64,000 nucleotides of DNA from Deltaproteobacteria bacterium (GTDB lineage Bacteria > Myxococcota_A > UBA9042 > DTJE01): the NCBI GenBank assembly GCA_029547805.1, contig JAKPOP010000003.1, positions 434,001 to 498,000 of the forward strand, in the 5' to 3' direction. Both the position numbers and the translations under genes were made by a program. The notes under the pieces are model-generated. The model saw only the letters and a program-made list of their open reading frames with translations, was not told where the DNA came from and ran no database searches. Position 1 is the stretch's first letter. Each line of letters opens with the position of its first letter. Positions 12,196 to 21,098 of this stretch are shown here, one piece after another.

Positions 12196-13089
12196 ATGAA
12201 ACTGCAGACGGTCCTGGTCCTCCTGGTGCTCGTGGCCGCGGGATTCTTCGCCCTGGGACGGCTCACCGCCCCCCGTTCGGAGTCCCCGACCCAGGCCGCC
12301 CCCGCTCCCCAGGCCGCAGCCCCGGTGGCCCCCCGCCCCGCCCCCCAGGTCCAGCCCCCGGCACCGCCCCCGGCGGCCCCGGAGGTCTTCCGGGTGGACA
12401 ACGCCCCGGTTCGGCCGCCGCCGCCTCCCCCCTGGACGCCGCCCCCGGGCACCCAGCCGGCGAAGGACCCCAGCCCCTCGAAGGGGCCCGTCGATGCCCC
12501 GGTGATCCTGCTGGAGGTCTCGGACTTCCAGTGCCCGGTCTGTCGCCGGGCCTACGAGCCCCTGAGGGCCATCGCAGACCAGATGCCCGGAACGGTGCGG
12601 CTCGTCTTCAAGCACAATCCGCTGGACATGCACCGGAATGCCCTCAACGCCGCCGCGGCGGCCATGGCGGCCGCACGGCAGGGGAAGTTCGACGCCTTCG
12701 CCGACTGGGCCTTCCAGAACCAGTCCTCGCTGGACGAGACCTCGCTGCTCAGCGCCGCCCAGTCCCTGGGGCTGGACATGGACCGGTTCCGCAAGGACTA
12801 CAACGACCCCTCCCTTCGGATGCGCGCGAAGGCCGAGGGGAACGCGGCGGCGAGCCTGGGTGCCCAGGGGACCCCGTCGTTCTTCATCAACGGACAGATG
12901 CAGGTGGGTTGGGCCTCCTACGAGGCCATCGTGCAGATGGTCCAGCGGGAGGCCGAGGCGGTCCGGGGCCTGACGGCCACGGGGATGTCGGTCCGGGAGG
13001 CCCGGATCCAGCGGGTCCGGTCCCACCTGAAGGACCAGGCCGAGGCCTTCCTGGCCTCTCCGCTGGCCGTGGAATTCCAGAAGCCTTGA
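12196..13089 (+). CDS. DsbA-family thiol oxidoreductase
   Basis: A 297-residue protein with a signal-anchor at residues 5-24 and a Pro/Ala-rich tether to about residue 95. The DsbA-like domain has the active site 'VSDFQCPVCRRAYEPL' (Cys-Pro-Val-Cys), the inserted helical region, and the cis-Pro motif 'GAQGTPSFFINGQMQVG'. It acts in the periplasm as an oxidase or isomerase of disulfides. The ATG follows GGGGAGGTGGCTCG. An extra C-terminal helical segment of about 40 residues follows the fold. It is divergent from the TlpA-like gene; lon follows 76 bp downstream. Confidence 0.88.
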   Translation: MKLQTVLVLLVLVAAGFFALGRLTAPRSESPTQAAPAPQAAAPVAPRPAPQVQPPAPPPAAPEVFRVDNAPVRPPPPPPWTPPPGTQPAKDPSPSKGPVDAPVILLEVSDFQCPVCRRAYEPLRAIADQMPGTVRLVFKHNPLDMHRNALNAAAAAMAAARQGKFDAFADWAFQNQSSLDETSLLSAAQSLGLDMDRFRKDYNDPSLRMRAKAEGNAAASLGAQGTPSFFINGQMQVGWASYEAIVQMVQREAEAVRGLTATGMSVREARIQRVRSHLKDQAEAFLASPLAVEFQKP

Positions 13090-13165
13090 TCCAGGCCCTC
13101 CCAGTGCCCATGTTGGGGAGGCTCCGGCCCGACCGGGGCCATCGACTCGGAACCAGTGAGGAACC

Positions 13166-15679
13166 ATGACGAACAGACCTCAGAAACCCGACCCCGAGAC
13201 CGAGGGCCTCGCCACGGTGAAGGCGATGCCCATCCTGCCCCTTCGAAACTCGGTGCTGTTCCCGGGGCTCGTGATGCCCCTGGTGATCGGCCGCGAGAAG
13301 ACCCTGCGCCTGCTGGATGCCGTGAACGGCAAGGACGAGGTCATCGGCGTCCTGACCCAGAAGGACAAGGACATCAACGACCCAGGGCCCGATGACCTGT
13401 ACTCCATCGGGACCACGGCCCGCATCCTGCGCATCGTCCGGGAGCGGGAGCAGGGAGTGGACATCGTCGTCCAGGGCATCCAGCGCTTCGAGGTGGTGCA
13501 GTTCGTCCAGAAGGCGCCGTTCCTGGCCGCCGAGGTGCGGTTGATCCCGGAAGAGGACCAGCGCACCGTGGAGACCGAGGCCTTGATGAAGACCCTCAAG
13601 GCGGTCACCCAGGAGGTCCTCAAACTGGTCCCGGAGATCCCCAACAGCGCCACCGAGATGGTGGACCAGGTCCAGTCCCCGTCCCGTCTCGTCTTCCTGA
13701 TCGCGTCGAACCTCCCCATCACCACGGAGGAGAAGATCCAGATCCTGTCGATGACGGACGTCGCCGCCGCGATGCGGACCGCCCTGAAGATCCTCCACCA
13801 TCACCTGGAGGTGTTGAAGGTCACCCAGAAGATCAACACCGAGGTGAAGGGGGAACTGAACAAGAGCCAGCGGGAATACCTGCTCCGGCAGCAGTTGAAG
13901 GCGATCCAGAAGGAACTGGGGGACCTGGAGGACGAGGGGGATGTCCTGGACGAACTCCAGGAGAAGATCCACCAGATGAAACTCCCCGAGGAGGTCCTCA
14001 AGATCGCCGAAAAGGAACTGCGGCGCCTGAGGGCCATCCAGCCGTCGTCTCCGGAATACACGGTGGCCCGGACCTACCTGGACTGGATCACGGACCTCCC
14101 CTGGGGCAAGACCACGACGGACAACCTGGACGTGGTCCATGCGCGGCAGGTCCTGGACGAGGACCACTACGACCTGGACAAGGTGAAGAAGCGGATCCTG
14201 GAGTACCTGGCCGTCAGCAAACTGCGGAACAACCTCCGGGGGCCAATCCTGTGCCTGGTGGGACCGCCGGGGGTGGGCAAGACCTCCCTGGGGCAGTCGG
14301 TGGCCCGGGCCCTGGGACGGAAGTTCATCCACGTGAGCCTTGGCGGCGTCCGGGACGAGGCGGAGATCCGGGGGCACCGGCGGACCTACATCGGGGCCCT
14401 GCCGGGCAAGATCATCCAGAGCCTCAAGCGGGCCGAGAGCCAGAATCCCGTCTTCATGATGGACGAGATCGACAAACTGGGACGGGACTGGCGGGGCGAT
14501 CCCACCTCGGCCCTGCTGGAGGTGCTGGACCCGGAGCAGAACCACTCGTTCATGGACCACTACCTGGACGTCCCCTTTGACCTGTCGCAGATCCTGTTCA
14601 TCACGACGGCGAACGTGACCGACACGATTCCCCCGCCGCTGCTGGACCGGATGGAACTGCTGGAACTCCCCGGCTACACCCCCGAGGAGAAGATCGCCAT
14701 CGCCCGGCGCCACCTGATCCCGAAGCAGGAGAAGGAGCACGGGCTCCCGGAAGGCGTCTTTTCCATGTCCGACCAGATGCTGCTCTACGCCATCGATCAC
14801 TGGACTCGGGAGGCCGGGGTCCGGAACCTGGAGAGGACCATCGCGGGCATCTGCCGTGGCATCGCCGTGAAGATCGTCGAGGGCACCTGGCAGCAGCGCG
14901 ACATCGACGAGGAGATGCTCCGGGAGTTCCTGGGGCCGGAGCAATACCAGCCCGAGACGGTGGAGCGGACCGAGACGGCGGGAGTCGCGACGGGGCTGGC
15001 CTGGACGGCCACGGGTGGCGAGATCCTCTTCGTCGAGGCGACCCGGATGAGCGGCAAGGGGCGGTTGAAACTGACCGGGCAGCTGGGAGACGTGATGAAG
15101 GAGTCGGCCCAGATCGCCCTGTCGTTCCTGGAGTCCAACGCCCTGGCCTTCGGACTCGATGCCGGGACCTTCGAGAGCGCGGACCTGCACATCCACGTCC
15201 CCGCGGGCGCCATCCCGAAGGACGGGCCGTCCGCGGGGGTCACGATGTTCACGGCGCTCTACTCCCTGATGACGGGCCGCCGGGTGCGGTCCGACACCGC
15301 GATGACGGGCGAGATCACCCTCCGGGGGCTGGTGCTTCCTGTCGGGGGGATCAAGAACAAGGTCCTGGCGGCCCAGCGCGGGGGGATCCGCAGGGTCGTG
15401 CTCCCGGAGCGGAACCAGAAGGACCTCACGGAGATCCCGGAGCAGGTCCGCCGGGAGATGGAGTTCGTCTTCGTGCGCCGGGTCGAGGACCTGCTGGAGG
15501 CGGTGATCGAGCACCCCGAGGGGGAGGCCCTGGTCCATGCGCCGCTGCAGGTGCCCGTGAGCGACCTGGCTCCGACCCCCTCCCGAACTGGACCCGCCAC
15601 CCCGGACGACGAGGAGGAGGCGCCGGCTCCCCCTCCCCGGGAGGAGCCCGACGACCTCCCGGAGCGGCCCACCGTGTGA
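13166..15679 (+). CDS. lon: ATP-dependent protease La (Lon)
   Basis: An 837-residue protein of normal Lon length. An N-terminal substrate-binding domain (~20-220, starting 'MPILPLRNSVLFPGLVMPL') and a coiled-coil region are followed by the AAA+ module with Walker A 'GPPGVGKTS' near residue 366 and Walker B 'VFMMDEIDKLG'. The proteolytic domain carries the catalytic Ser in 'KDGPSAGVTM' (~687) and Lys in 'IKNKVLAA' (~730). A ~45-residue acidic, Pro-rich tail ('DDEEEAPAPPP') extends past the usual end. It degrades misfolded and regulatory proteins in the cytoplasm. ATG 13166 has GAGGAACC upstream. It heads a plus-strand block of quality-control genes. Confidence 0.97.
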   Translation: MTNRPQKPDPETEGLATVKAMPILPLRNSVLFPGLVMPLVIGREKTLRLLDAVNGKDEVIGVLTQKDKDINDPGPDDLYSIGTTARILRIVREREQGVDIVVQGIQRFEVVQFVQKAPFLAAEVRLIPEEDQRTVETEALMKTLKAVTQEVLKLVPEIPNSATEMVDQVQSPSRLVFLIASNLPITTEEKIQILSMTDVAAAMRTALKILHHHLEVLKVTQKINTEVKGELNKSQREYLLRQQLKAIQKELGDLEDEGDVLDELQEKIHQMKLPEEVLKIAEKELRRLRAIQPSSPEYTVARTYLDWITDLPWGKTTTDNLDVVHARQVLDEDHYDLDKVKKRILEYLAVSKLRNNLRGPILCLVGPPGVGKTSLGQSVARALGRKFIHVSLGGVRDEAEIRGHRRTYIGALPGKIIQSLKRAESQNPVFMMDEIDKLGRDWRGDPTSALLEVLDPEQNHSFMDHYLDVPFDLSQILFITTANVTDTIPPPLLDRMELLELPGYTPEEKIAIARRHLIPKQEKEHGLPEGVFSMSDQMLLYAIDHWTREAGVRNLERTIAGICRGIAVKIVEGTWQQRDIDEEMLREFLGPEQYQPETVERTETAGVATGLAWTATGGEILFVEATRMSGKGRLKLTGQLGDVMKESAQIALSFLESNALAFGLDAGTFESADLHIHVPAGAIPKDGPSAGVTMFTALYSLMTGRRVRSDTAMTGEITLRGLVLPVGGIKNKVLAAQRGGIRRVVLPERNQKDLTEIPEQVRREMEFVFVRRVEDLLEAVIEHPEGEALVHAPLQVPVSDLAPTPSRTGPATPDDEEEAPAPPPREEPDDLPERPTV

Positions 15680-15704
15680 CCCAGACGTGAACCGCCCGAT
15701 GGGG

Positions 15705-15734
15705 TTGTGTTCCCGCCGGGAATCGGCAGACAAT
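15705..15734 (+). promoter_or_regulatory. Possible promoter before the M29-USP fusion gene
   Basis: TTGTGT (15705-15710), an 18-bp spacer and GACAAT (15729-15734) precede ATG 15764. The match is partial; the stretch is the only AT-bearing part of the gap after lon. Confidence 0.3.
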
Positions 15735-15763
15735 GAGGGAGTCGGCACGGAAGGAGCACTCCC

Positions 15764-17221
15764 ATGGACGAAGTCTTGCTGCGCAATGCCCTGGCGGCCC
15801 TGAGGCAGGTCCTGGAACTGCGGGCAGGAGAGAACGCCCTGGTGGTCACGGACCAGGGGACCCGGATGGTCGGCGAGGCGTTCCGGACGGCCGCCGAGGA
15901 CCTGGGGGCCCGGACGGCCTGGTACGTCCTCCCGGAGGAACAACGACCCCTGACCGACCTCCCGGAGGACCTGGCGGCGCTGATCCCCGACGTGGACGTG
16001 GCCGTGACGTGCTTCACGGGCCGGGCCGAGGAGACGCCCTTCCGAGTTGCCCTGCTGCGGGGACTCATGCGGGTGGCCCGGCGGGTCGGACACGCCCCGG
16101 GGATCACCGAGGCGATGCTCCGGGAAGGACCGATGCAGGTGGACTACGATGCCCTGGCCATGGCGGCCAACGACCTGATGGACCGCCTGGAGGGGGCGGC
16201 ATCGGTGCACATCCAGGCCCCGGGAGGCACGGACCTGACATTGGGGATCGAGGGGCGCCCCTTCGCGACGGACACGCTGGTGGCCGACGGCCACTGGGGC
16301 AATCTCCCCTGCGGCGAGATCTGGTGCGCACCGGTGGAGGATGCGGCCGAGGGAGTGCTGGTCTGCGACGGGTCCATCGGGGACCTGGGGGCGGTCCCGG
16401 CCCCCGTGAGGATGCGCATCTCCCAGGGCCAGGTCACGGAGGTCCAGTGTGCCGACGAGGCCTTCGCTGCCCGGGTCCGAGAGGTGATCTCGGTGGACCC
16501 CGGGGCCTCCCGGATCGGGGAGTTCGGAATCGGCCTGAATCCCGGCGCCCGGGTCACGGGCAACCTGCTCGAGGATGAGAAGGCGCTGCGCACCATCCAC
16601 ATCGCCTTCGGCAACAACACCGACATGGGAGGGGGTCAGAACACCTCGAAGACCCATCGGGACTTCCTGGTGCTGGCGCCGACCCTGGAGGTCACCTTCC
16701 GGGACGGGCGCACGGAACGGGTCATGGTGGGCGGGGAGATCGTCCCCCGGAACCGCCCCCGAAACGCCGCGGAGCCCCACCGATTCCATCACCTGCTGGT
16801 GGCCGTGGACTACTCGGAGGCCTCGGTGGAGGCGCTGCGGCTTGCGGACCACATCGCCCGGCGCGATGACGCCCGCCTCACCGTGTGCCATGTCCTCCCG
16901 ATGCCGGCGATGGTGAGCCCCCTGTTCCCCCACTACGTGGCGATGCCCGACACGGAGACTCATCGCGCCAACGAACTGAACGCGGCGGCGCGGCTGGAAC
17001 AACTGGTGCGGGAGAACACCCCTCGGAGCCCCGAGGCCTACCAGATCCTGGTCCTGTGGGGGGATGCGGCGGTCCGGATCATCGAGGCGGCGGAGCAGAA
17101 GGGGGCCGACCTGCTCGTGATCGCGAACCGGGGCACGGGGGGACTCGCGCGGTGGGCGCTGGGGAGCGTCGCGGCCCACGTGGCGGCCCATGCCCGATGC
17201 CCGGTCCTGCTGGTCCGGTGA
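15764..17221 (+). CDS. M29 aminopeptidase fused to a universal stress protein domain
   Basis: A 485-residue protein. Residues 1-~340 match M29 (AmpS/AmpT-type) metalloaminopeptidases. The expected metal ligands are visible in order: Glu in 'PCGEIWCAPVED', Glu in 'RIGEFGIGLNP', His in 'TIHIAFGNN', and His and Asp in 'SKTHRDFLV'. Residues ~345-485 are a complete UspA-like domain: 'HHLLVAVDYSEASVEALRLADHIA' at its start and the nucleotide-binding pattern 'VIANRGTGGLARWALGSVAAHVAAHARCPVLLV' at its end. M29 enzymes are normally stand-alone, so the fusion is unusual. GGAAGGAGCACTCCC precedes the ATG. Neighbours lon, nfeD and slipin suggest a role in peptide clearance under stress; this is inference. 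Confidence 0.85.
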   Translation: MDEVLLRNALAALRQVLELRAGENALVVTDQGTRMVGEAFRTAAEDLGARTAWYVLPEEQRPLTDLPEDLAALIPDVDVAVTCFTGRAEETPFRVALLRGLMRVARRVGHAPGITEAMLREGPMQVDYDALAMAANDLMDRLEGAASVHIQAPGGTDLTLGIEGRPFATDTLVADGHWGNLPCGEIWCAPVEDAAEGVLVCDGSIGDLGAVPAPVRMRISQGQVTEVQCADEAFAARVREVISVDPGASRIGEFGIGLNPGARVTGNLLEDEKALRTIHIAFGNNTDMGGGQNTSKTHRDFLVLAPTLEVTFRDGRTERVMVGGEIVPRNRPRNAAEPHRFHHLLVAVDYSEASVEALRLADHIARRDDARLTVCHVLPMPAMVSPLFPHYVAMPDTETHRANELNAAARLEQLVRENTPRSPEAYQILVLWGDAAVRIIEAAEQKGADLLVIANRGTGGLARWALGSVAAHVAAHARCPVLLVR

Positions 17222-17237
17222 ATCCCCGGGAGAAGCC

Positions 17238-18635
17238 ATGACGTCACGGTCGTCGATGCTGGGAATCCCGCTGGCCATCGCCCTGTCCCTGGTGACGGTG
17301 CCGGCCCGGGGTGCGGTCCACCGGGTGGTGCTGGATGGGACCATCGACCCCATCCACGCGGAATACGTCGGGCGGGCGATGGACCTGGCCGAACGGGAGT
17401 CCTCCCGCCTGATCCTGATCCGCCTGGATACCCCCGGGGGGCTCGTGGACGCGATGGAGGACATCCTGCGACGCGTGCTCTCGTCCCGGATCCCGGTGGC
17501 GATCTACGTGGGGCCACCGGGGGCGAAGGCGGCGTCGGCTGGCTTCTTCCTGCTGGTGTCGGCCGACGTGGCGGCGATGGCCCCGGGGACCCGCACCGGC
17601 GCCGCCCACCCGATCCTGTCCATCGGGGGCTTCATGCCCCTCCAGGAACCGGCCCCCCCCTCCCAGGACCCGAAACCCGACGAGGCCCAGAGCCAGGAGA
17701 AGGCCCCGGCACCCCCGAAAGGGAGCCAGACCGACATCCTGATGCAGAAGGTCACCAACGACATCCAGGCCTTCCTGCGGGACGTGACGACCCGGCGCGG
17801 GCGCAACCCTGAAGAGGCCGCGAAGGCCGTGGCCGAGTCCCGATCGTTCAGCGCCACCGAGGCCCTGGATGCGGGCCTGATCGACCTGGTGGTGGGCAGC
17901 GAGGCGGACCTCCTGCGGCAACTGGAAGGGCGGGAGGTCCGGCGCCTGGACGGGAGCGTGACGACGCTGTCGGTCGTGGACCAGCCCATCGTGGACGTCC
18001 CGATGACGCTCCGGGAGCGGGTGCTGTCGGTCCTGGTGAACCCCAACGTGGCCTTCCTGATGGCCATCGTGGGCGCGCTGCTGATCTACGTCGAGATCAC
18101 CCACGCCGGGCTGGTCCTCCCTGGCGTGATCGGGGGACTGCTGCTGCTGATGGCCGTGGCGGGATTCTCGTTCCTGCCGATCTCGGTCACGGGCCTGCTG
18201 CTGGTCCTGGCGGCCCTGGGCCTCTTCGTGGCCGAAGTGCTGGTGTCATCCTTCGGACTGCTGGGCCTGCTGGGCGTCGTGGCCCTGGCCCTGGGAGGCA
18301 TCATGCTGGTGGACGTCCCCGATCCGGAGTTCCGGGTGGCCCCCGCCATCGCGATCTCGGCGGCGCTGGCCTTCGGCCTGCTGGTGGTGTTCCTGGGAAC
18401 CCTGGCCGTGAGGGCGATGCGAAAGCGCGTCACGACCGGGTCCGAAGGGATGATCGGGGAGGAGGGCGTCGTCGTGACGGACCCCCATCCTGAGGGGCGT
18501 GTGCAGGTCCGGGGCGAGTACTGGCGGGCCGTGTCCCCGATGTCGCTGGCTCCGGGGACGCGGGTCCGCTGCGTGGGCATGGAGGGGCTGACGATCCGCG
18601 TGGAGCCCCTGGATCCGGAGTCGAGGAAGGCCTGA
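17238..18635 (+). CDS. nfeD: NfeD-family membrane-bound serine protease, long form
   Basis: A 465-residue protein. A signal peptide (residues 1-25) leads a ClpP-like domain (~27-250) with 'LDTPGGLVDAMEDIL' and the catalytic-site region 'GAKAASAGFFLLVSADVAAMAPGTRTGAAHP', where the Ser in 'ASAG' is the likely nucleophile. An Ala/Pro/Lys-rich insert is at ~140-170. Four to five membrane helices (~275-400) and a C-terminal OB-fold 'GEEGVVVTDPHPEGRVQVRGEYWRA' complete the long NfeD architecture. The family cleaves stomatin-like proteins and works with them in the membrane. Its partner slipin is directly downstream (39-bp gap). ATG 17238 follows GGGAGAAGCC. Confidence 0.93.
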   Translation: MTSRSSMLGIPLAIALSLVTVPARGAVHRVVLDGTIDPIHAEYVGRAMDLAERESSRLILIRLDTPGGLVDAMEDILRRVLSSRIPVAIYVGPPGAKAASAGFFLLVSADVAAMAPGTRTGAAHPILSIGGFMPLQEPAPPSQDPKPDEAQSQEKAPAPPKGSQTDILMQKVTNDIQAFLRDVTTRRGRNPEEAAKAVAESRSFSATEALDAGLIDLVVGSEADLLRQLEGREVRRLDGSVTTLSVVDQPIVDVPMTLRERVLSVLVNPNVAFLMAIVGALLIYVEITHAGLVLPGVIGGLLLLMAVAGFSFLPISVTGLLLVLAALGLFVAEVLVSSFGLLGLLGVVALALGGIMLVDVPDPEFRVAPAIAISAALAFGLLVVFLGTLAVRAMRKRVTTGSEGMIGEEGVVVTDPHPEGRVQVRGEYWRAVSPMSLAPGTRVRCVGMEGLTIRVEPLDPESRKA

Positions 18636-18674
18636 CGGCGGGAGGTTCCTGGCGGGACCTCCGAGGAGGTGACG

Positions 18675-19439
18675 ATGGACCTGGTGAGCCTGGTGCTGGG
18701 GAACGGAGTGGCCGTGGTGATCGGGCTGGTGGTGATCTACCTGTTCAGCGCGGTCCACATCCTGCGCGAGTACGAGCGGGGCGTCGTCTTCCGGCTGGGA
18801 CGACTGCTGGATCGCCCGAAGGGGCCGGGGCTGATCTTCATCTTCTGGCCCATCGACCGGTTGATCAAGGTGGACCTCCGGACCATCACGATGGACGTGC
18901 CGCCCCAGGACATCGTGACCCGGGACAACGTGACGACCCGGGTCAACGCGGTGGCCTATTTCCGGGTGGTGGACGCGGCCCGGGCGATCACCGAGGTCGA
19001 GAACTACCTCTACGCGACATCCCAGTTGGCCCAGACGACCCTGCGATCGGTCCTGGGCGAGGTGGACCTGGACGAGTTGCTGAGCCAGCGCGAGAAACTG
19101 AACCAGCGGCTCCAGGAGATCCTGGATCGGCACACCGACGCCTGGGGCATCAAGGTGTCGCTGGTGGAGATGAAGCAGGTGGACCTCCCGGAGGAGATGC
19201 GCCGCGCCCTGGCGAAGCAGGCCGAGGCCGAGCGGGAGAAGCGGGCGAAGATCATCCACGCCGAGGGGGAACTCCAGGCATCCCAGAAACTCTCGGAGGC
19301 ATCGGTGATCCTGGCCAAGGAACCCGTGGCGGTGCAGTTGCGCTACCTCCAGACCCTGACCGAGATCGGGACCGAGAAGAACACCACGGTGGTCTTCCCC
19401 ATCCCGGTGGACCTGCTGTCGATCTTCCAGAAGAAGTGA
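18675..19439 (+). CDS. Slipin: stomatin-like SPFH/band 7 membrane protein
   Basis: A 254-residue protein. One N-terminal membrane helix (~6-27) is followed by an SPFH domain: '[13 protein letters not shown]', '[37 protein letters not shown]', '[12 protein letters not shown]', '[18 protein letters not shown]'. A charged helical region ('[20 protein letters not shown]') comes next, and a short C terminus. Slipins form membrane scaffolds and are paired with NfeD in many genomes, as here. ATG 18675 is the start because GAGGAGG lies five bases before it; GTG 18669 overlaps that site. It ends 12 bp before a strong hairpin shared with the converging receiver gene. Confidence 0.95.
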
Positions 19440-19450
19440 CGGCGGCCGGA

Positions 19451-19477
19451 GGCCCGGGTCATCCCCGGACCCGGGCC
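19451..19477. terminator. Bidirectional hairpin between slipin and receiver genes
   Basis: A perfect 10-bp inverted repeat, GGCCCGGGTC and GACCCGGGCC, with a 7-base loop. The stop codon of the minus-strand receiver gene (19459-19461) lies within it. No U-run follows on either side; the role is inferred from its place at a convergent junction. Confidence 0.6.
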
Positions 19478-20058
19478 ACGACCTCCCGGAGCACGTTCAT
19501 CGTGAAGGGCTTGATCAGCACCGGGCGGCCGGTCCGCTGCAGGAAGTCCTGGATGCCCGGGTCCACGACGCCCCCCGTGACGAAGAAGACCCGTTCCGTC
19601 AGTTCCGGTCGGGTCTCCTGGAGCATCTCGAAGATCGATCGCCCCCCGTGGTCCCCCCCCAGGGAGACGTCCAGGCAGATGACGTCGTAGGTTCCCTCCA
19701 GCAGGAGTTGCACGGCCTGCTCCACCGTCTGGGCCGTCTCGACCTCGTAGTCCCGGCCCAGGACCTCGGACTCCAGTTTCAGCAGGACGGTCTGGTCCTC
19801 GACCAGCAGCACCTTGCCCCGGCTCGTGGTGACCGGTGCGGGGCGGTTCTCGTGCTGGCGCTGGAAGTCCTGGATCTCGTCCACGATCGCGTCGGTCTGG
19901 CGTTGGAGGTCCTCCATCAGGAGTCGGGCCTGGGCGGGCAGGTCCGGAACGCGTCGCAGGCGCATGAGGATCTCGAGGTTGGCAGTCATCAGGTTCGCGA
20001 GCCGGTGGTGGAAGGACCAGACGGCCTGCTGGTAGGAGGGGTTGTTTCCGTCTTCCAT
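19459..20058 (-). CDS. Response regulator receiver protein with an orphan histidine-box helix
   Basis: A 199-residue protein. Residues ~82-199 are a receiver domain: acidic pair in 'KVLLVEDQTVLLKL', phospho-acceptor Asp in 'YDVICLDVSLGG', Thr in 'FFVTGGV', Lys in 'VLIKPFTMNVL'. The first ~75 residues are helical and begin 'WSFHHRLANLMTANLEILMRL', which looks like the H-box of a histidine kinase dimerisation helix, but no ATPase domain follows. It could be a phosphorelay intermediate in which one chain carries both phospho-sites. ATG 20058 was chosen; GTG 20064 is in frame. No output domain is present. Confidence 0.8.
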   Translation of the reverse strand: MEDGNNPSYQQAVWSFHHRLANLMTANLEILMRLRRVPDLPAQARLLMEDLQRQTDAIVDEIQDFQRQHENRPAPVTTSRGKVLLVEDQTVLLKLESEVLGRDYEVETAQTVEQAVQLLLEGTYDVICLDVSLGGDHGGRSIFEMLQETRPELTERVFFVTGGVVDPGIQDFLQRTGRPVLIKPFTMNVLREVVARVRG

Positions 20059-20110
20059 CTGCACAGCACCGGGAAGGACGGCGCAAACCTACCGGAAAGT
20101 GCCCGGGGGA

Positions 20111-21031
20111 TCAAGCGCGGGGATGGGTCTTTCGATACACCTGCTGCAGGTGACCACGACTGACGTGGGTGTAGATCTCGGTGGTCCCGATGTCGGCGTG
20201 CCCGAGCATCTCCTGGACGCTCCGGAGGTCAGCGCCGCCCTCCAGCAGGTGGGTCGCGAAGGAGTGGCGCAACTTGTGCGGGGACAGGCGCTTCACGATG
20301 CCCCCCTGGATGCCGTAGTTCCGGAGATTCCGGTAGAACCCCTGGCGGGTCAGCACGGTGCCCCGCGCAGTGAGGAACAGCGGATCCCGGAGGGGACGCC
20401 GTCCCCGCGCCCGGCGTCGCCACAGGTCCAGCCAGGCCGGACGCACGTCCCGGAGCCAGGTCTCCAGGGCCTCCCGGCACGGTTCCGAGATGGGGACGAG
20501 GCGCTCCTTGTTGCCCTTGCCCCGAACCCGCACGAAGTCCGAGGCAAGCTGGACGTCGCCGACCTCCAGCCCCAGGGCCTCGCTGATCCGCAGTCCCGAC
20601 CCGTAGAGGAGTTCCAGGATCGCCCGGTCCCGAATCCCCTGGGGACTCTCCAGGGAGGGGGCCTCCAGGAGCGCCTCCATGTCGGCCTGGTTCAGCACCA
20701 CCGGCAGCCGGGAGGTGTAGCGGGGGATCTCGATGTCCGCCATCGGGTTCACCGACACCACGCCCGACTCCATTCCCCAGCGGAACCACTGGCGCAGCAC
20801 CACCACCGCCTGGGCGAGGCTCCGGGGAGCAATCCCCTGGGCCCTCCGGTGGGCGAGGAAGTCCTCGATGTCGGCAGAACGGACCTGCGAAAGGGCGATC
20901 CCCTCCTGGTTCCGGGAGGCCAGGAAGGTCGTCCAGGCGGACAGGACCCGGGCATAGGCGGCCCGACTGTTCGGAGCAAGCCCCCGCTGGACCTCCAGGT
21001 GGAAGAGGAAGGCGTCGATCTCCCGGTCCAC
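20111..21031 (-). CDS. Tyrosine recombinase, XerC/XerD type
   Basis: About 306 residues, the family's usual length. The N-terminal SAM-like core-binding domain runs to ~110. The catalytic domain has Arg in 'GSGLRISEALGLEVGD', Lys in 'GKGNKERLVPIS', 'SPHKLRHSFATHLLEGGADLRSVQEMLGHADIGTTEIYTHVS' (His-x-x-Arg, His and nucleophilic Tyr). All six catalytic positions are present, so it should be active. The long C-terminal match is the standard dimer-resolving Xer form rather than a phage integrase. GTG 21031 has GGAGG five bases upstream and gives the normal N terminus; an upstream TTG at 21091 would add 20 residues. No dif-like site was seen nearby. Confidence 0.9.
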   Translation of the reverse strand: MDREIDAFLFHLEVQRGLAPNSRAAYARVLSAWTTFLASRNQEGIALSQVRSADIEDFLAHRRAQGIAPRSLAQAVVVLRQWFRWGMESGVVSVNPMADIEIPRYTSRLPVVLNQADMEALLEAPSLESPQGIRDRAILELLYGSGLRISEALGLEVGDVQLASDFVRVRGKGNKERLVPISEPCREALETWLRDVRPAWLDLWRRRARGRRPLRDPLFLTARGTVLTRQGFYRNLRNYGIQGGIVKRLSPHKLRHSFATHLLEGGADLRSVQEMLGHADIGTTEIYTHVSRGHLQQVYRKTHPRA

Positions 21032-21098
21032 GACCGCCTCCAGGACAGGCCGACCGATGGCAGTATCCCGCCAGGAAACCGCCAGGGGCAAGGAGCCG

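Follow-up and report, generated by a model that had tools for sequence, protein, structure and literature searches.

What kind of enzyme has been joined to a universal stress (Usp) domain at this locus, and what might the Usp domain do there? The gene in question lies in a 64,000-nucleotide stretch of DNA (the window) from a Deltaproteobacteria bacterium of the Myxococcota. The features that frame the question are as follows, with the basis of each in parentheses.

13166 to 15679, + strand: lon, ATP-dependent protease, conserved upstream neighbor (Pfam; synteny)
15751 to 15756, + strand: AAGGAG, a ribosome-binding-like site 7 bases 5' of the ATG (read from the sequence)
15764 to 17221, + strand: fusion gene, 485 amino acids plus stop (open reading frame; two Pfam domains; alignment of 12 full-length proteins)
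15764 to 16744, + strand: M29/NicX-like metalloenzyme domain, residues 1 to 327 (Pfam PF02073; structural alignment of model residues 1 to 330)
16745 to 16783, + strand: variable linker, residues 328 to 340 (low pLDDT at 331 to 337; variable across the 12-protein alignment)
16784 to 17218, + strand: Usp domain, residues 341 to 485 (PF00582; TeaD 3hgm)
17238 to 18635, + strand: nfeD, ClpP-like membrane protease family (Pfam; sequence)
18669 to 19439, + strand: slipin/stomatin, SPFH, Band 7 (Pfam; synteny)

The 485-codon frame is open throughout. Pfam assigned residues 137 to 325 to Peptidase_M29 (E = 1.3e-19; 70.8 bits against a cutoff of 27), a match that spans only positions 194 to 405 of the 406 in the profile; the N-terminal part of the domain was assigned by structure, with model residues 1 to 330 aligning to NicX and AmpT. 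Residues 341 to 485 matched Usp (E = 9.3e-30). The M29-Usp fusion that had been predicted here was thus recovered as two Pfam domains in one uninterrupted reading frame, and its predicted position between lon and nfeD-slipin was borne out by Pfam assignments of the neighbors. For nfeD, the mechanical open reading frame starts at 17190, and an alternative ATG at 17238 gives an N terminus that, judged by eye, resembles a signal peptide. A promoter and terminator scan returned no signal clearly exceeding shuffled sequence. Past slipin, on the opposite strand, are a response-regulator protein gene (19459 to 20064, − strand) and what we take to be a xerD-like recombinase gene (20111 to 21091, − strand), in an order conserved across most relatives. 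A 1,525-amino-acid antisense open frame (12887 to 17464, − strand) runs opposite lon and the fusion gene and is most likely a by-product of the GC content of about 70%.

A frameshift or misassembly merging two adjacent genes could produce such an arrangement, as the original prediction had itself cautioned. We found the full-length fusion protein in 12 of 52 genomes, a search set that includes the window's own genome (G000, G001, G003, and G005 to G013; 45 to 91% identity). Because these homologs carry the same uninterrupted frame, with no internal stop, and nothing spoke in favor of an artifact, we ruled one out and regard it as having almost no chance of being the explanation. Synonymous change dominates even in the linker, where the 13 codons compared with the nearest genome give a Ka of 0.036 and a Ks of 0.717.

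A survey of 377 genomes of the phylum found the full-length fusion in the same 12, which belong to one order-level lineage: 11 of the 13 genomes of the window's family plus the only genome representing a sister family within that order. The possibility that the fusion is widespread, also raised in advance, was not borne out. Within the family, the fusion is absent from G004, which is 82% complete and gave no match, and from G002, which encodes a lone Usp protein between lon and nfeD (L046:5869-6375). This lone Usp shares 64% identity with the Usp part of the fusion in its congener G008 and no more than 43% with the others, so the enzyme half of G002 looks to have been lost secondarily, with the Usp domain kept. 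As judged from substitution rates against the nearest relative, G001, both halves are under strong purifying selection (Ka and Ks of 0.063 and 0.463 for the M29 part and of 0.036 and 0.415 for the Usp part). Over ten more distant pairs, the M29 half was the better conserved, with Ka values of 0.22 to 0.45 versus 0.26 to 0.94 for the Usp half. We thus confirm the fusion as genuine, conserved, and uncommon.

The M29 part has 379 confirmed relatives in a scan of named genomes, and the best 80 of the 379 were analyzed. Among these 80 loci, 11 carried the Usp fusion; their assemblies are all of Myxococcota or "Deltaproteobacteria," and one is titled Anaeromyxobacter dehalogenans. These 11 are the genomes G001, G003, and G005 to G013 and were counted once. 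The other 69 came from Thermoplasmata and other archaea, KSB1, Calditrichota, Ignavibacteria, Treponema, and others, and no Usp was detected within their available flanks. Neither the 377 phylum genomes nor the best 80 of 379 named loci yielded a fusion outside the one lineage, and although 112 of 72,556 plasmid records matched part of the protein, none covered at least 80% of it. In a maximum likelihood tree of 80 rows (79 loci plus the window, with truncated L080 omitted), the 12 fused rows formed one clade (ultrafast bootstrap 99, SH-aLRT 92), in agreement with an earlier quick tree, and a single fusion event therefore explains all of them. Three stand-alone proteins from Myxococcota-class genomes (L081, L086, and L088, from G020, G027, and G030) fell outside the fused clade; another, in G214, is absent from the tree. 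Polyubiquitin chains ranked top in a similarity search, each score adding up eight matches of about 3 bits; we discounted them as chance hits.

The enzyme half had been predicted to be an M29 aminopeptidase retaining all five expected metal ligands. We used the 12-row alignment to build an AlphaFold2 model (mean pLDDT 86.8, pTM 0.68; linker residues 331 to 337 at low confidence). In VIA-align, the modeled enzyme half aligned best to NicX (7cup; Z = 30.9, 3.1 Å, 308 residues), which was likewise the top Foldseek match of the model, followed by AmpT (2ayi; 26.1), AmpS (1zjc; 25.9), PepS (24.5 to 25.2), and CgnE (16.0). With Z scores of 24.5 to 26.1 against 2ayi, 1zjc, 4icq, 4ics, and 4icr, the model has the M29 fold, and its score over 308 residues assigns it to the NicX fold as well. 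The residues that matter for the function of this domain, all placed by alignment, are the following.

16316 to 16318, + strand: E185, predicted metal ligand, aligning with E250 of AmpT-type enzymes
16520 to 16522, + strand: E253, predicted bridging metal ligand, aligning with E316 of AmpT-type enzymes and H265 of NicX
16598 to 16600, + strand: H279, predicted metal ligand, aligning with H345 of AmpT-type enzymes
16619 to 16621, + strand: T286, at the position of the M29 catalytic Tyr, which is absent (also placed by spacing relative to Y315 of Lmo1603)
16655 to 16657, + strand: H298, predicted metal ligand
16661 to 16663, + strand: D300, predicted metal ligand

All five predicted ligands were indeed present, and they are invariant in the 12 full-length fused proteins. 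The EEHYHD set lacks its sixth member, the Tyr: T286 stands in its place, spaced (7 residues past the first His and 12 ahead of the second) like Y315 of Listeria Lmo1603 in the available part of PMC4661694. Across the best 80 of 379 named loci, all five ligands occur in 77 (the exceptions are L081, L088, and truncated L080), whereas the Tyr is present in only 19, from Spirochaetes and two Thermoplasmata, none of them fused; it is absent from the other 61, L080 included. Plasmid-borne relatives have His (Salinigranum) or Asn (Niallia) at the Tyr position. The loci L057 to L104, L143, and L144 make up a wide Tyr-less M29-like subfamily. Two stand-alone Myxococcota-class relatives, each encoded directly after an OPT transporter gene, have altered ligands: H298N and D300E in L043:7159-8142 and H279R in L045:4459-5442.

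In two Listeria M29 enzymes, any single mutation of the six residues, Tyr included, is described as abolishing activity (PMC7023490 and PMC4661694, in the portions available), and the accessible text of PMC10070186 describes the M29-like protein CgnB as having a dinuclear zinc site yet no aminopeptidase activity. With five ligands kept and the Tyr absent, a dinuclear metal site is therefore supported by the alignments, and an aminopeptidase not yet. The M29 fold and the five ligands of the original prediction stand, but the enzyme name is not secured: the domain's subfamily lacks the catalytic Tyr that the tested Listeria enzymes need, and NicX is the closest solved structure. A weaker name, "M29-like metalloenzyme, Tyr-less subfamily," should replace it. 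The window domain shares its fold and five metal ligands with AmpT, AmpS, and PepS but is about 80 residues shorter and lacks the Tyr, and the solved chains of those enzymes carry no Usp domain. The crocagin proteins CgnB (6zsv) and CgnE (6zsu), which also have an M29-derived fold (Z = 15 to 16), are more distant from it; as far as the available sources describe them, they act in RiPP biosynthesis and have no extra domain.

An alternative hypothesis is that the N-terminal domain is a metal-dependent enzyme that is not a peptidase and acts on another small molecule (a heterocycle, an amide, or an acyl-amino acid), as NicX, a 2,5-dihydroxypyridine dioxygenase (7cn3 and 7cup) of similar length, does within the same fold. 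The higher structural score of NicX than of AmpT and the missing Tyr both speak for this hypothesis. The ligands do not: two of the four NicX iron ligands given in the available part of PMC7910607 (H265, S302, H318, and D320) are replaced, H265 by E253 and S302 by A281, with H298 and D300 matching the other two, and all five M29 ligands are kept. By the ligand test, the window protein is therefore not NicX.

Gene neighborhoods bear on the same choice. Lon is directly upstream in 9 of the 12 fused loci, nfeD is downstream in 10 (in L042, by a C-terminal match only), and slipin is present in 9, with the window included in each count; L038 begins just before the fusion gene, and L032 ends within nfeD. 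No lon or nfeD match was found in the available flanks of the 69 unfused loci among the best 80 of 379, many of which end at contig ends. Among unfused Tyr-less loci (L057 to L098), 7 of 40 have a gene for an OPT oligopeptide transporter close to the M29 gene (L057, L062, L074, L081, L084, L088, and L098), and in 6 of the 7 it is upstream on the same strand. Three of these were identified by Pfam (L081, L098, and L088 via its copy L045) and the other four by similarity to those three; the seven are not independent, four falling in one KSB1/Calditrichota/Deferribacteres-type clade and two being Myxococcota class. Melioribacter-type loci L099, L102, L104, and L109 have an OPT gene at about 2 to 4 kb. 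These OPT genes, like the lon/nfeD neighbors, suggest peptides and weigh against a nonpeptidase.

Two other settings speak for a nonpeptidase. In G013 (L040:2769-9288), where the fusion has a different location without lon, an amidohydrolase gene and genes for the three subunits of a molybdenum hydroxylase precede it on the same strand, and a haloarchaeal plasmid relative annotated "aminopeptidase" adjoins AroM, DUF1177, DUF917, racemase, and aspartoacylase genes. The fusion of G006 is also located elsewhere, with neither lon nor nfeD nearby. The search detected no OPT gene close to any of the 11 fused named loci or to the Treponema loci; all 13 genomes checked encode one somewhere. A comparison of gene neighbors common to the archaeal relatives gave no functional lead. 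On balance, we read the neighborhoods as making peptides the likelier substrates, and we treat "aminopeptidase" as a hypothesis favored by lon and by the OPT genes that adjoin 7 of the 40 stand-alone loci. That the domain is not a peptidase at all is a serious alternative, though we doubt it.

The C-terminal domain is a complete Usp domain, as had been predicted. Its nearest folds are TeaD (3hgm; Z = 18.4) and then UspF-type proteins (4r2l and 3fdx; Z = 17 to 18), stand-alone Usps that do not share the fusion to an enzyme. D349, the Asp after the first strand, is present. The nucleotide loop is near canonical:

17123 to 17167, + strand: Usp nucleotide loop, A454-N-R-G457-(9x)-G467-S468

The first Gly of the G-2x-G-9x-G(S/T) motif is Ala here, and the nucleotide-binding pattern, originally called intact, was described slightly too strongly. 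The form A-2x-(G/S)-9x-G(S/T) occurs in 10 of the 12 fused proteins, and the loop is degenerate in the other two (G003 and G009, from L041 and L042, genus g3). The first loop Gly is present in 21 of 26 solved Usps, according to the available part of PMC3673472, and the part of PMC12159084 available indicates that in models the pocket is apparently kept when this residue is Ala or Pro. The sequence makes nucleotide binding by the Usp domain plausible.

A further explanation is that the M29-like half binds peptides but catalyzes weakly or not at all, comparable to CgnB and CgnE, and that the Usp domain does the work, serving the lon-nfeD-slipin cluster as a stress factor. The missing Tyr and the inactivity of CgnB would fit, as would G002, where a stand-alone Usp persists between lon and nfeD. 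A dead module is hard to square with five metal ligands invariant in every fused protein, with an M29 half better conserved than its partner, or with two fused proteins whose Usp loop is the degenerate part. We consider it improbable.

We favor, at roughly even confidence, a single-event fusion in a Myxococcota lineage of a stand-alone Tyr-less M29-like metallohydrolase and a Usp domain that tunes the activity or assembly of a peptide hydrolase. The N-terminal domain would bind two divalent metals and cleave short peptides or peptide-like amides, plausibly ones released by the neighboring Lon, with another group having to replace the missing Tyr. The Usp domain may bind adenine nucleotide, dimerize, or both, and would regulate or assemble the enzyme according to energy state or stress. 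For this explanation we count the two domains in one frame, the conserved fusion with its invariant ligands, the purifying selection on both halves, the single clade, the lon/nfeD setting, the OPT genes near stand-alone relatives, and the TeaD/UspF-type folds nearest the C terminus. Against it, we count T286, the inactivity of CgnB, NicX as the nearest fold, the settings of G013 and G006, the OPT-free fused loci, the degenerate loops of G003 and G009, and the Usp-only state of G002. A bolder version, in which nucleotide binding by the Usp domain gates a distinct Tyr-less M29-like metallohydrolase and thereby ties the final step of Lon-coupled proteolysis to ATP level or stress, seems to us unlikely. 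The original suggestion that peptide breakdown responds to ATP or stress remains a hypothesis.

The combination of an M29-like domain with Usp is a rare, conserved, and apparently new domain architecture. The fusion partners named for Usp domains in the available part of PMC12159084 are kinases, ion exchangers, and permeases. In partly available sources, the histidine kinase KdpD likewise has a Usp domain within a larger protein, as a nucleotide (c-di-AMP) sensor, whereas the window protein is a fusion of the metalloenzyme type. Nor is the fusion already characterized as far as we could find: a search of the titles and abstract openings of mostly open-access papers returned no published description of an M29-Usp fusion.

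Many proteins labeled M29 "aminopeptidase" in databases lack the Tyr required in the tested members, which makes that label questionable. The role of Usp domains is still poorly understood, and a natural fusion of Usp to an enzyme with measurable activity would read out directly what the Usp domain senses. In the gating reading, if true, the direct output of a Usp domain would be an enzyme activity.
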